Shown: in pieces, positions 4,265 to 8,080 of the stretch
Position numbering within the stretch: position 1 is the first letter of the stretch
Layout: every line of letters begins with the position of its first letter
Source: a virus
Length of the DNA: 30,376 bases
IMG/VR virus record: IMGVR_UViG_3300028581_000167
Location: 1 to 30,376 of that record
Reading direction: 5' to 3' (one strand)
The notes under the pieces: generated by a model
What the model saw: only the letters and a program-made list of their open reading frames with translations
The model's database searches: none
Told to the model about the DNA's origin: nothing
Program-made: the position numbers and the translations under genes

Positions 4265-4915
4265 TTAAACTTTCGGCATTAATGACCTGTATCTATCGAT
4301 TAACATATCGATTGTTTCTATATCTTTTTTCGTGTGTTTATTCCAGAATGTCAATTTACCTGATGTTGCATATTCCTTCATATTTTTTAACCATTCAACA
4401 ACAGAAAAAGTATATTGAAAGTGTTCCCTAACTGAACTTTTGTCCCTAAAATTTAATCCGATTTTCTCGCCTTTTTGAACAACTATTTTATTGCCATCTC
4501 CTCCATAGTCAAAAAGACCTTCCCAAACTTGTTTTTTAATTTGTTGTTTTTGGTAATGGAATTCCCTTTCTGTTCCATCTGAATAGTGAACCACGACTTT
4601 TGTAATTTCTTTATATTTTCCAACATCTGCTATATATTTTATTGCAAAATTAGTCGGGTCAATGATTTCATCTCCATAGATAATTCCAGTAGAACCTATA
4701 CCATAATTAATATCTGATCCAAGTCGTTCGATAATCCAATCAATATATTGTTTTATGGTGTTTGGTGAAATTTTTAATTTTTCTTTTTTTGCAATCCAAA
4801 ATGATTTTCTAATCACTTGGTTTTTTGACCCGATGTTTTTAATATCTGGGTTTTTTTCTTTTAATCTCATAATTAAGATTTCAAGTTTGTCTTTTGTGTC
4901 ATCCCTCATTATCAT
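4265..4915 (-). CDS. Unrecognised ~216-residue protein, possibly early or DNA-binding
   Basis: I do not recognise this protein. From the ATG at 4915 it begins MIMRDDTKDKLEILIMRLKE. This start leaves 5 bases after the upstream stop at 4921, whereas a start at 4951 would overlap the upstream gene by 31 bases; both are possible. Residues about 25-75 are helical and basic with a possible winged-helix or HTH stretch (QVIRKSFWIAKKEKLKISPN). The middle is beta-rich (VVVHYSDGTEREFHY). The C-terminus is helical. It is the largest gene of the leftward cluster next to the structured non-coding region. No replication initiator is recognised in the genome and this is one candidate, by position only. Confidence 0.55.
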   Translation of the reverse strand: MIMRDDTKDKLEILIMRLKEKNPDIKNIGSKNQVIRKSFWIAKKEKLKISPNTIKQYIDWIIERLGSDINYGIGSTGIIYGDEIIDPTNFAIKYIADVGKYKEITKVVVHYSDGTEREFHYQKQQIKKQVWEGLFDYGGDGNKIVVQKGEKIGLNFRDKSSVREHFQYTFSVVEWLKNMKEYATSGKLTFWNKHTKKDIETIDMLIDRYRSLMPKV

Positions 4916-4920
4916 ATTTT

Positions 4921-5124
4921 TTATTTTATTTTTATTTTGGTCATAGACCATAGGTTTCTTAAATATTCTTTGTCATAAATTAACTCCATTCGTGATATAT
5001 CTTTGTAAATATATTTTCTTCGTATATTTTTTAATTCATTCGAGTATATCGTTCCACTATAATGTTTTTTGAGTATATCACACGCGTGGATTATTTGGAT
5101 TTTATATTTTTCAGTGGTCATCAT
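4921..5124 (-). CDS. Small protein, function unknown
   Basis: A 67-residue, Lys/Tyr/Ile-rich, mostly helical protein starting MMTTEKYKIQIIHACDIL. Its start overlaps the end of the 5111 gene by 14 bases, which supports translation coupling. The pattern YSNELKNIRRKYIYKDISRM could be a small helical bundle or DNA-binding fold, but no family is recognised. It is the second gene of the leftward cluster that begins beside the structured intergenic region. Confidence 0.5.
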   Translation of the reverse strand: MMTTEKYKIQIIHACDILKKHYSGTIYSNELKNIRRKYIYKDISRMELIYDKEYLRNLWSMTKIKIK

Positions 5125-5419
5125 TTTCTATTAAAGTCCTAAGTTTTAAATCACGTGTCAGTTCAGTATAATTAATTTTACCACATTCTTCTGCATAAAG
5201 GAGAAGTGGTGGATTTCCTGGCTCCACCACAAAGTCCCAACCAATCTCCTCCAAATCACTTTCAGTAGCAACCTCCATATTAATGACTTGATATTTTGTG
5301 CTGTTAAAATAAAAAACATCACCGATATTGTGGAATACAGGTAGCATATCTTTCATCGGTGGTCTGTCGTAGTGGAGCAGACAATAAATAAAATCTGGTT
5401 CTGTAAGTAAATTTGTCAT
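5111..5419 (-). CDS. Unrecognised early-type protein, first gene of leftward cluster
   Basis: A 102-residue protein beginning MTNLLTEPDFIYCLLHYDRP. It is acidic toward its C-terminus (ESDLEEIGWDFVVEPG and ENDDH) with a central beta-rich part (GDVFYFNSTKYQVINMEV) that could be a small barrel. No family is recognised. It is the first leftward gene after the large non-coding region, so a promoter must lie at or above 5420; no clean leftward Bacteroidetes promoter is visible there. Small acidic proteins in this place are often host-takeover or anti-defence factors, but nothing in the sequence shows that. Confidence 0.55.
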   Translation of the reverse strand: MTNLLTEPDFIYCLLHYDRPPMKDMLPVFHNIGDVFYFNSTKYQVINMEVATESDLEEIGWDFVVEPGNPPLLLYAEECGKINYTELTRDLKLRTLIENDDH

Positions 5420-5531
5420 AAAAAAAGTAATTTAATATATATGTTTTATATATCTTTTTGTAAAAAGGTTTTTTTTTTATACAACTTTTTTTGAATTTAA
5501 GATATAAAATATATCCATCGCCTCAACGAAG
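5420..5531. other. Very AT-rich leader before the leftward cluster
   Basis: No gene is seen. The stretch is almost all A and T, with runs of T (for example about 5470-5479) and a weak CTTTTT/AAAAAG inverted repeat around 5455-5467. It must hold the leader, and perhaps the promoter, of the leftward gene at 5419, but I find no TTTG/TAnnTTTG pair on the minus strand here. Confidence 0.4.
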
Positions 5532-5570
5532 AAACCTCATGAATTAATTTTTTGAGGTTTTTTTGTTTTT
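5532..5570 (+). terminator. Rightward intrinsic terminator
   Basis: An 8-bp stem, AAACCTCA (5532-5539) with TGAGGTTT (5553-5560), is followed on the plus strand by a T-rich tract to 5570. A competing pairing exists: CCTCAA (5521-5526) with TTGAGG (5552-5557). No rightward gene lies between 1389 and here, so it may stop late read-through or end an unseen RNA. Confidence 0.65.
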
Positions 5571-5599
5571 ATTAAAAACTTTTTTAAGGACTTTTCTAA

Positions 5600-5965
5600 G
5601 TGATTTTCACACTTTGGTTGTGTGAAATCACATCTAGACCGATCTGATATATCCAAAATGTTTGCCAGAGATTAAAAGTTTCAGAGGATTTTAGACACGA
5701 CCATCCTTAGGCCGTCATCTAAAATCCTCTGTTTAACCTAAATGCCGTCAATTGCTTGCCGTCGACCAATTAGCCCCATCGGATTTTAACTATATCACTT
5801 AGTCAATATAGTCGCCAGACCTACTTTAAGATGGTTTCTAAGCCACCTATATGCTCACAACTCGTCTGGTATTAACACCATTGCTGCCCTATGTCATATA
5901 TCCTCCCAGTGGGGCATTACAATATAGTCCCTGGTGCCATTTGTGCGTCAGACTATAAGGTCGAT
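5600..5965. ncRNA. Candidate large structured RNA (or structured origin/control region)
   Basis: No open frame of gene length is found on either strand, base composition is less AT-rich than the flanks, and helices are dense. Seen directly: hairpin 5600-5631 (12 bp, one bulge); a perfect 14-bp stem 5682-5695/5718-5731 whose loop bases TTAGG (5707-5711) can pair CCTAA (5737-5741) as a pseudoknot; a long-range helix TCGACC (5762-5767) with GGTCGA (5959-5964). That helix encloses four more: 5789-5795/5806-5812, CCAGAC/GTCTGG (5815-5820/5864-5869) with an inner hairpin 5829-5848, TGCCCTA/TGGGGCA (5885-5891/5910-5916, one wobble) and 5923-5929/5951-5957. This is the layout of a multibranched RNA. 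Strand is undecided: read leftward the loops are A-rich, as in structured RNAs, but no promoter is clear on either strand. It resembles known giant phage RNAs (GOLLD, ROOL) only in kind; I cannot match it to either. Confidence 0.6.
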
Positions 5966-6028
5966 TGCCTATGATTTGTCACTGATTTGCCTTTAATTTA
6001 TGCCAGAAATTGCCTTTGATTGCCTTTG
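5963..6028. repeat. Iteron-like phased array of (G)ATT(T)GCCTTT units
   Basis: TGCC cores start at 5966, 5988, 6001, 6011 and 6021, with a degenerate TGTC at 5977. Spacings are 11, 11, 13, 10 and 10 bases, so the cores face roughly the same side of the helix. The last two full units are a perfect 10-bp tandem repeat, ATTGCCTTTG (6009-6018 and 6019-6028). The array directly follows the structured core and ends about 30 bases before the promoter at 6061. It could bind a repressor, activator or replication initiator. Confidence 0.55.
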
Positions 6029-6060
6029 AATTAAAATTTATATAATTTATATATCAAAAG

Positions 6061-6092
6061 TTTGGTCTTTCATAAAAAATTTATTAAATTTG
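6061..6092 (+). promoter_or_regulatory. Bacteroidetes-type promoter for the ParB/terminase operon
   Basis: TTTG (6061-6064), 20 bases, then TAAATTTG (6085-6092) fits the Bacteroidetes -33/-7 consensus (TTTG, about 19, TAnnTTTG). Transcription should start near 6098, giving a leader of about 75 bases before the ATG at 6175. Confidence 0.7.
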
Positions 6093-6102
6093 TCAAAAAG
6101 GT

Positions 6103-6138
6103 GATAACCCCCACTATGTCCTATGGAGAAGTGTTATC
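6103..6138 (+). promoter_or_regulatory. Leader hairpin before the ParB-like gene
   Basis: GATAAC (6103-6108) pairs GTTATC (6133-6138). ACT (6113-6115) pairs AGT (6130-6132) above a CCCC bulge. The hairpin would lie near the 5' end of the mRNA from the 6061-6092 promoter. No T run follows, so it is not a terminator. It may stabilise the leader or be a protein site. Confidence 0.4.
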
Positions 6139-6174
6139 TTAATATATAAAAAATAAAATATAAATTAAATCTCT

Positions 6175-6924
6175 ATGAATATACAAATGGTAGGTATAAG
6201 CGAAATAAAACCCAACCCGCAAAACCCAAGGGTTCTTAACGATGGAAAATTTAAAAAATTAGTAAGTTCAATAAAAGAATTTCCCAAAATGATGGAAATA
6301 CGACCAGTTGTCGTAGATGAAAACAATATCATACTCGGTGGAAATATGCGATATAAAGCATGTCAGAAAGCAGGACTTAAAACCATACCTATAATTAGGG
6401 TTGAGGATTTAACTCAACAACAAAAGGAAGAGTTTATAATTAAAGACAACTTATCGTATGGTGAATGGGATTTTGATATTTTATCAAACGAATGGGATAA
6501 AGAATTTTTATTGGACTGGGGTTTGGATTTTCCAAAATCTGAATCTGATGTCCCCCAAATGACAGATAGTAAATATACAAAAAAAGTTGAAGCACCAATT
6601 TATCAAATAACAGGTCCGAAACCAGATGTAGCAGATTTAACGGAATTGGAAACATATTATAAAATATTGGGAAGTATTGAAGAAAAAGGCGAAAACATAC
6701 CAGAGGAAATTAAATTTTTTTTAAGATTAGCAGCAACAAGACATATAAAATTCGATTATAGTAAATGTGCTGAATTTTACGCACATTCAGAGGCAGATGT
6801 TCAACGACTTATGGAGGAACTGGTTCTTATTATAATAGATTTTGATAAAGCAATTGAACTTGGATATTTAAGAATAAGCGAAAAACTAATTGGTGAATAT
6901 AAAAATAAACCCGAAAAAGAATGA
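6175..6924 (+). CDS. ParB/sulfiredoxin-fold N-terminal domain protein
   Basis: A 249-residue protein. Residues 4-80 match the ParB-like N-terminal domain: ISEIKPNPQNPR (8-19), IRPVVVDENNIILGGNMRYK (42-61) with the GGNxR box at 55-59, then a VEDLTQQQKEEFIIKDN segment. Many such phage proteins are nucleotide-dependent switches or nucleases beside terminase and modification genes rather than true partition proteins; no ParA gene is present. The C-terminal half (about 150-249) is helical and unassigned. It starts the rightward operon behind the 6061 promoter and overlaps the glycosyltransferase gene by 4 bases (ATGA). In known phage neighbourhoods, ParB with TET-associated glycosyltransferase and terminase suggests a role in DNA modification or packaging. 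The exact activity is inferred only. Confidence 0.8.
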   Translation: MNIQMVGISEIKPNPQNPRVLNDGKFKKLVSSIKEFPKMMEIRPVVVDENNIILGGNMRYKACQKAGLKTIPIIRVEDLTQQQKEEFIIKDNLSYGEWDFDILSNEWDKEFLLDWGLDFPKSESDVPQMTDSKYTKKVEAPIYQITGPKPDVADLTELETYYKILGSIEEKGENIPEEIKFFLRLAATRHIKFDYSKCAEFYAHSEADVQRLMEELVLIIIDFDKAIELGYLRISEKLIGEYKNKPEKE

Positions 6925-7784
6925 TTTCAAACAACAACAACGACTTCGCTGTCTTTATCCTAACATACGGAAGAGCAGAAAAGGTAAGAACTTATAGAAC
7001 TTTGAGAGAACAAGGATATACTGGCAAAATTTATTTAATGTGCAGTGATGATGATAAGCAATTAACTGATTATAAAAGAATATATGGCGATGAGGTAATA
7101 GTTTTTTCAAAAAAGGATTGGAAGGGTAAATTTGATATAGGTGATAATTTCACCAAAGAAAATGTTGTTGTTTATGCAAGAAACGCAAATCCGGAAATAG
7201 CAAAAAATCTTGGTTTAAAATACTATCTGCAACTTGACGACGATTACAATAATTTTAGATTAAGATTTGCAGAAGGAAAAAAATTAAGTTCATCTCCACT
7301 TCGCGATTTAAATAAAATCTTTGATATATTTTTGGAATTTTTAGAAAATTCACCAGCGACCAGTATTGCTTTTGCTCAAGGTGGGGATTATATTGGAGGA
7401 ATTGACGCATCGATTTTAAACAGAAAAACAGTTCGTAGAAAATTAATGAATACCTTTTTTAATAAAGTCAGTGACCCATATCAATTTTTAGGAAGAATAA
7501 ACGAGGATGTCAATTGCTATATACACAACGGCAAATTAGGCAAAATTTTTCTTACACATCCCAATATATGTGTGACGCAATTACAAACTCAAACAAACTC
7601 TGGTGGTTTAACAGAATTTTATTTGGACGGAGGAACATATCAAAAATCATTTTATACTATTCTTTACAATCCCTCTGCTATAAAAATATCACTAATGGGT
7701 CGAACAGATAAACGATTACACCATTTTGTTCAATGGAAAAATGCGGTTCCGCAAATCATAGAGGAAAAATGGAGAAAAAATTAA
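6921..7784 (+). CDS. TET-associated-type glycosyltransferase (TAGT family)
   Basis: A 287-residue protein matching, motif by motif, the phage TET-associated glycosyltransferase family, which shares ancestry with the domain in animal GREB1. The N-terminus FAVFILTYGRAEKVRTYRTL (9-28) is the nucleotide-sugar side. YLQLDDDYN (102-110) supplies the DxD-like metal motif. GRINEDVN (191-198), GGLTEFYLDGGTY (228-240) and RLHHFVQW (265-272) are the family's C-terminal signatures. Known relatives are proposed to glycosylate oxidised or hydroxymethylated bases in phage DNA. Here no TET/JBP oxygenase or other base-hydroxylating enzyme is seen in about 30 kb. It overlaps the ParB gene by 4 bases and the GIY-YIG gene by 16. 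Family membership is quite sure; the substrate is not known. Confidence 0.85.
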   Translation: MISNNNNDFAVFILTYGRAEKVRTYRTLREQGYTGKIYLMCSDDDKQLTDYKRIYGDEVIVFSKKDWKGKFDIGDNFTKENVVVYARNANPEIAKNLGLKYYLQLDDDYNNFRLRFAEGKKLSSSPLRDLNKIFDIFLEFLENSPATSIAFAQGGDYIGGIDASILNRKTVRRKLMNTFFNKVSDPYQFLGRINEDVNCYIHNGKLGKIFLTHPNICVTQLQTQTNSGGLTEFYLDGGTYQKSFYTILYNPSAIKISLMGRTDKRLHHFVQWKNAVPQIIEEKWRKN

Positions 7785-8080
7785 AATATATTGTTTATAA
7801 AATTTTAATAGACAAAAAGACACGATATATAGGTCATACCAATGATTTATTAAGAAGGGAAAAACAACATAATTATCTCTGTTTTAGGACAAAAAATAAA
7901 AAAATTCTTTATAATAAAATCAAAACTCTATATCCAGAATATGGAGATTTAAGTTTAATTGAAATTAAAGGATTTAACACAAAAATTGAGGCAAAAAGAT
8001 ATGAATGTTTTTTAATTTTAACCGACTATTTTGGGGATAAAGAATTATGGCAACAAATACCTAAAATCTCGGATATGTAA
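7769..8080 (+). CDS. GIY-YIG domain endonuclease
   Basis: A 103-residue single-domain GIY-YIG protein. The GIY part is KYIVYKI (6-12) and the YIG part RYIGHT (19-24), followed by the catalytic-type Arg in LLRREKQHN and a conserved Glu-bearing helix (KIEAKRYEC). I chose ATG 7769, preceded by GAGGAAAA, over the ATG at 7733, because the motif begins right after it and the extra 12 residues only shadow the upstream gene. Its start lies inside the end of the glycosyltransferase gene. GIY-YIG proteins cut DNA as homing, repair or restriction-like enzymes. Its place between a DNA glycosyltransferase and terminase suggests action on phage or host DNA, perhaps sensitive to modification, which is inference. 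Confidence 0.8.
   Translation: MEKKLKYIVYKILIDKKTRYIGHTNDLLRREKQHNYLCFRTKNKKILYNKIKTLYPEYGDLSLIEIKGFNTKIEAKRYECFLILTDYFGDKELWQQIPKISDM

Follow-up and report, generated by a model that had tools for sequence, protein, structure and literature searches.

Comparative analysis of a 30,376-nucleotide stretch of viral DNA from IMG/VR (the window, meaning the whole stretch that was analysed) indicates that its minus strand, from about position 6035 to 5600, encodes a conserved structured RNA of about 430 nt that is not translated into protein. With moderate confidence, we favour the reading that this RNA is the product of a stand-alone gene, carried as an accessory (moron-like) module, and works in trans, on the combined grounds of strand-specific base pairing, a promoter-like region, a hairpin at the end, inversion of the element, its patchy presence and its transfer between phages. 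It would probably serve as an optional tool for host takeover, not as a core part of the virus.

The RNA lies in a gap of 755 bp (5420-6174) in which inspection of the open reading frames of the window revealed no credible ORF, bounded by a leftward ORF (5111-5419, minus strand) on one side and a rightward ParB-like gene (6175-6924, plus strand) on the other. The initial annotation had described a gene-free, structured region here, richer in G+C than its flanks; all of its coordinates were verified in the sequence, G+C was 37% in 5501-6000 compared to 29% on both flanks, and the helices that it listed (5600-5631, 5682-5695/5718-5731 and the TCGACC/GGTCGA pair) were all present. Elsewhere in the window, a TET-associated glycosyltransferase gene (TAGT; 6921-7784, PF20691, E 2.6e-32) suggests that this phage has modified DNA bases, and a GIY-YIG endonuclease gene (7733-8080) lies directly upstream of the probable small terminase gene. 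On the plus strand at 5483-5566, a promoter-like sequence (AACTTTTTTTGA...TATAAAATATAT) has a hairpin and a T-run no more than about 50 bases downstream of it, in a position kept in L086 and L084, and could possibly give a very short transcript or act as an attenuator.

Searches with neighbouring proteins and DNA patterns recovered three distinct relatives, L084, L086 and L100, with 80%, 69% and 98% identity to the window over the element respectively. A covariance model built from these four members (R1) independently found five further members, all near terminase genes: L140 (248 bits), L113 (E = 6e-7), L115 (2e-4) and L112 (3e-4) among terminase-related contigs, and L181 (contig of L011; E 4.5e-7). 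L197, from a later pattern scan, scored the same as L181 and looks near-identical to it. The family thus counted has nine distinct members in IMG/VR phage contigs, with a core identity of 43-98% between members, all of them metagenomic viral contigs that may be incomplete. The phages carrying the RNA are compact (30-34 kb) and presumably infect Bacteroidota, judging by their nearest cultured terminases alone (approximately 33% identical). A DNA similarity search against annotated phages and plasmids gave nothing real, the matches obtained when 84,980 bacterial and archaeal genomes were scanned by pattern were all chance ones in coding sequence (L103-L106), and further pattern matches (L095, L099, L101, L102, L194, L200 and L201) were rejected as coding or chance.

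Folding energy alone was suggestive on both strands, with the minus strand of 5600-6035 folding at -120.8 kcal/mol (z = -3.70; 0 of 100 shuffles as good) and the plus strand giving z = -2.73 (1 of 100 shuffles as good); the comparative evidence was far stronger. In the alignment of the nine members (A9; 28 modelled pairs, P1-P4), which was fitted to the structure being counted and had some distant members structurally realigned, such that exact figures lean towards the structure, standard pairing was found in 92.9% of base-pair cells. The compensatory changes for which the initial annotation had looked to homologues were present, with both sides changing in 23 of the 28 pairs, a level of covariation reached in 0 of 500 shuffles and compared with at most 9 pairs in slid controls; sliding the partner by one column reduced pairing to 39%. 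Detection of the distant members by R1 did not involve the structure fitting of A9, and covariation was likewise far above controls within the five close members. The P2 stem occurs as GCGAU/AUCGC, UUUCAC/GUGAAA, AUUACU/AGUAAU, GCUC/GAGC and GCCC/GGGC, and that of P3 as CCAGAC/GUCUGG or UCCUUG/CAAGGA. Of the 11 differences in 506 positions that separate the window from L100, two even combine into one compensatory pair in P3b (G-C to A-U). G-U cells exceeded A-C cells (20 versus 3), which establishes the minus strand as the RNA strand.

Coordinates and comparative support of the parts of the RNA, listed 5' to 3' on the minus strand, with the exchanged block and the long-range helix
Feature	Position in window	Strand	Description and support
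Promoter-like region	6038..6063	-	AAACTTTT (6063-6056), then AT-rich TTATATAA (6045-6038); putative
A-rich unstructured 5' leader	5964..6026	-	RGCAWW at 6024, 6014, 6004, 5991 and 5969; spacing 10, 10, 13, 22
Hairpin P1	5923..5957	-	2-nt purine bulge (AG) on 3' side; both sides change in 5 of 5 modelled pairs, nine members
Hairpin P2	5886..5915	-	Loop holds ACUGGGAGGAUAUAUGACAUA (conserved, GGRGGA-like); both sides change in 4 of 4 pairs, 100% paired
Helix P3	5815..5869	-	CCAGAC/GUCUGG; encloses asymmetric internal loop ending AAGUAG, and P3b; both sides change in 5 of 6 outer pairs, 100% paired
Hairpin P3b	5829-5848	-	8-nt loop; both sides change in 4 of 6 pairs, 100% paired
Hairpin P4	5789..5812	-	Both sides change in 5 of 7 pairs; 80% paired on automatic alignment
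Hairpin P5	5682..5731	-	Conserved apical GAUGACGG-CCUAAGGA-GG-UCGUGUC; 3 pairs change on both sides, 96.8% paired (five close members)
3'-end hairpin	5600..5631	-	Exact edge of exchanged block; no U-run; common to L100 only
Exchanged block	5600..6104	-	98% identical (495/506) in L100, other genes distantly related
Long-range helix, 5762-5767 with 5959-5964	5762..5964	-	0 pairs changing on both sides, 82.5% paired

The helices described initially fared differently under comparison. The 14-bp helix at 5682-5695/5718-5731, which forms P5 and is joined to P4 by a linker, was supported by covariation in the close relatives. Distant members retain the leader as well as P1-P4, and have a different long 3' hairpin at the position of P5. 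The long-range helix that had been thought to enclose four further hairpins exists in the sequence and showed no compensatory change; 4 of its 8 pairs depart by unpaired cells only, and it was not evident in the distant members and may be chance or a local peculiarity. The terminal hairpin was confirmed as present; its conservation extends only to L100, whose 98%-identical copy has one broken pair. Other members have hairpins of other sequence at the equivalent 3'-end position, and the hairpin is possibly a terminator or processing stem. RNAalifold returned a long-range GCCCC/GGGGC helix that competes with P2; P2 was preferred because it is 100% paired in the distant members too, and the competing helix may be an alternative state in the close relatives. 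In these, the GCYY of the P2 5' strand (5912-5915) pairs with a local GGGC or a distant GGGGC, both of which covary, as a two-state switch would.

Three further resemblances were rejected. A likeness, seen by eye, of P3b GGUGGCUUAGAAACCAUC to the GTPase-associated centre of 23S rRNA was dropped, as distant members have ACCUUAAA loops; a group I intron reading, from the string GAUAUAGU, leaves no room for P3/P8, with the two P4 strands 10 nt apart; and a miniature ORF after the P2 GGGAGG (AUG ACA UAG) was not kept in more distant members.

By Rfam, the RNA belongs to an undescribed class: the window and six related loci gave no match at gathering score, and GOLLD and ROOL were absent among the matches with E<=10 in 5440-6170. 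The initial proposal of a multibranched, structured phage RNA of a new class was thereby upheld with respect to Rfam, and its other suggestion, a relative of GOLLD or ROOL, found no Rfam match. The RNA may have been listed earlier without a name in surveys, such as a microbiome survey (PMC8040213) or a 2017 survey of 224 candidate RNAs. An RNA-only assembly, a multimer or cage of the GOLLD and ROOL kind in which something is held while the phage grows lytically, would suit a large, multibranched, phage-encoded RNA, given that GOLLD and ROOL assemble into RNA cages and have disordered linkers (PMC12286853). We consider this unlikely, as this RNA, at about 430 nt and with 28 core pairs that are well supported, is clearly smaller than the studied ROOL (659 nt) or GOLLD (often >800 nt), and GOLLD is often near tRNA genes (PMC12286853), whereas there are no tRNA genes near the phage element.

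Upstream of the folded part lie the promoter-like region and the leader. Sequences resembling (A)AACTTTT ... ATATA(T)AA precede the leader in L084, L112, L113 and L115, and also occur before the corresponding leaders of L114 and L119, and we infer that transcription would be from a phage promoter belonging to the RNA itself. GGCAA/RGCAA was over-represented in the leader of the window (0 of 300 dinucleotide shuffles) and RGCAWW motifs were over-represented relative to shuffles in most members, with about three or more copies per member and a more degenerate array in L086 and L113 (AGCAUU/AGCAUA in L113). An RGCAWW-rich leader also precedes the unrelated RNA bodies of L114 and L119.

The members lie near terminase genes, most of them at the junction of a leftward block, which contains a sigma-factor-like gene, and the terminase block. 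As 7 of the 9 read towards the terminase genes and are upstream of them, and the P2 5' strand has its two covarying, switch-like partners in close relatives, the RNA could be the long leader of its own transcript acting in cis, for example an antitermination element (PUT/nut) or a late-operon regulatory leader. We regard this as quite unlikely, since the copies in the window and L100 read away from the terminase, the element is inverted between the window and L084/L086 (terminase 88% identical) though the flanking genes match, and in L100, L140, L112, L113 and L115 the genes that directly follow the RNA run antiparallel to it. The inversion and the five antiparallel neighbours argue against a leader tied to one gene; a cis-regulatory leader would keep a constant place and orientation relative to the gene it regulates, and here both were found to vary.

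The clearest case of transfer was L100, in which the element matched that of the window at 495 of 506 bp (98%) and lies on another flank, while its terminase was only 50% identical to that of the window and the other long nucleotide matches at the locus were only 64-68% identical. These comparisons demonstrate, at the level of sequence, that the RNA is independent of its neighbouring genes and that the whole block has been horizontally exchanged. The contigs L087 and L088 (terminase 72% and 65% identical), which may be incomplete, gave no match with either covariance model, and its accessory status is proposed on this basis. The initial annotation had offered a folded origin or packaging site as an alternative, in which the single DNA strand would fold and act in cis. 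The divergent junction near the terminase, with the cumulative GC skew minimum falling at the element, would agree with this, and the RGCAAU repeats could be iterons; the GC skew here merely follows gene orientation, however, and the conserved G-U pairs and strand asymmetry are those of an RNA. As a main reading it was abandoned and we hold it to be very unlikely, for close relatives with the same terminase type, which also need an origin and a packaging site, lack the element, and an element that is inverted or absent in close relatives and on another flank in L100 is more readily explained as an independent gene than as a DNA site that is essential in cis.

Exchange also affected the body of the RNA separately. 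L112 and L114 are 98.7% identical over 1503 bp, ending inside the leader, beyond which the RNA body and the next small ORF are unrelated for approximately 620-660 bp before 95% identity resumes. Sequence comparison of this one contig pair demonstrates replacement of the body behind an identical promoter and leader in close relatives. With the body exchanged and the leader retained, the leader would appear to be the common module for docking or expression, and the body to act as effector. Homing endonucleases adjoin 3 of the 9 members, an HNH in L100 (with no convincing Pfam match, and matching several PHROG HNH families) and a GIY-YIG in L084 and L113; homing endonucleases are common in phages anyway. 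That the element is itself mobile, or a degenerate intron spreading by means of its RNA structure with no benefit to the phage, would account for the sharp 506-bp transferred block, the inversion and the endonuclease neighbours, but is highly improbable given that it is always at a similar site, keeps its structure over large divergence together with promoter and leader, has no match to group I/II intron Rfam models at E<=10 and no transposase-like ORF inside, and that the L114 swap retains promoter and leader, for which a body mobile by itself would have no use.

Several other elements were observed in these contigs. The replaced segment of L114 (3975-4592, versus 3524-4184 in L112) appears to be a second structured RNA type, itself with further RGCAAU motifs. 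L119, a contig with a related terminase, has a third RNA-like body (approximately 150-620) behind a leader of AGCAAU repeats, and upstream of that body a hairpin block, GAGTTTCGTTTCCGTGTGG-CTCACACTTCAACTC, which is the reverse complement of a block 3' of the RNA in L112 and L115. L116 contains, in the intergenic space upstream of its terminase, an exact, strongly folding 111-bp repeat (6250-6360 and 6442-6552; a 77% copy lies at 6946-7059) that may be a further structured RNA in tandem. In L112 and L114, sequences of about 60 bp repeated before several small genes (approximately 4840-6850) are likely to be dispersed phage promoters or regulatory repeats.

For the trans-acting accessory RNA gene that we favour, the following mechanism is proposed. 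Once the RNA is transcribed from its phage promoter during infection, its 5' leader, A-rich and carrying three to five RGCAAU motifs, would provide a common docking site for a repeated RNA-binding protein of the phage or host, and the variable folded body would present loops (the P2 GGRGGA loop, the 8-nt loop of P3b and the loop of P4) that bind or sequester a host target, for example an RNA-binding protein, a defence component or the ribosome. The adjoining HNH and GIY-YIG homing endonucleases would probably drive the swapping of bodies by gene conversion. In a subset of phages the role of the RNA may be essential.

More tentatively, and with rather less than even confidence, the locus may be an exchangeable site for non-coding RNA cassettes, where whole bodies are swapped behind a constant promoter and RGCAAU leader by homing-endonuclease-driven gene conversion, like anti-defence protein genes; the bodies would then amount to a set of RNA effectors directed at host functions, with the P1-P2 family reaching into mobile elements of Pseudomonadota through Betaproteobacteria-1. 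Exchange in this pattern is indicative of selection by the host, and whether the anti-defence genes that phages exchange have an equivalent made of RNA can be tested directly in a family whose consensus is measurable.

The nearest approach to a known RNA was Betaproteobacteria-1 (RF02932), an orphan Rfam family of candidate sRNAs with no assigned function, which gave the best sub-threshold Rfam match in 5440-6170 (E 0.0055 against 4227 families). Applied alone to 36 phage records, its model ranked L140 (29.2 bits, E 6e-6), the window (26.8), L100 (26.2) and L086 (21.3) as the top four, all below the membership cut-off of 49.4 bits; the phage matches fell in P1-P2, weaker ones lay outside any element in two other records, and L084, L112, L113, L115 and L181 gave none. 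Among 398 sampled Pseudomonadota genomes, true Betaproteobacteria-1 members were found in three and sub-threshold ones in a fourth (L202-L207); of these loci, L203 and L205 at least have phage-like or integrase-bearing neighbourhoods. Conversely, a P1-P2 covariance model of the phage family (R3), run unfiltered on these loci, gave its three best matches in register and on the right strand (L206, E 0.017; L205, 0.24; L202, 0.99), and R3 with default filters, and R2, gave no match there. In L212 (G015:C1:18500-24500), three weak RF02932 matches 1.4-2.3 kb apart are probably chance, the one inspected appearing to lie in a coding stretch. In the matching members, the two families appear to share two adjacent hairpins, with a short inner helix and a 2-nt purine (AG/GG) 3' bulge in P1 and a P2 loop containing CUG-GGGA ... 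AAA, but the phage RNA, at about 430 nt, carries P3b, P4, P5 and the leader array, which RF02932 (120 positions) lacks. The two families are likely to descend from a distant common ancestor or to have a P1-P2 module in common, which would offer this orphan family a phage-borne relative.

To our knowledge, few phage RNAs of this size have comparative proof of structure, and no large one has a settled function. The RNA resembles GOLLD in being phage-borne, large and multibranched with its function unsettled, and ROOL in being phage-borne and structured with its function likewise unsettled; PMC12286853 describes for neither of them the passage of an almost unchanged copy from one phage to a distant one, inversion of the element, or the exchange of one body for another downstream of a constant promoter and leader. 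A pRNA of the phi29 type would be expected wherever its cognate packaging motor is; the L087 and L088 contigs, possibly incomplete, in which neither model matched, speak against one. With a promoter-like region of its own, a place between core gene blocks, patchy presence and horizontal exchange, the element is most like a moron. Phage morons as usually described encode proteins, whereas the product here would be a structured RNA.
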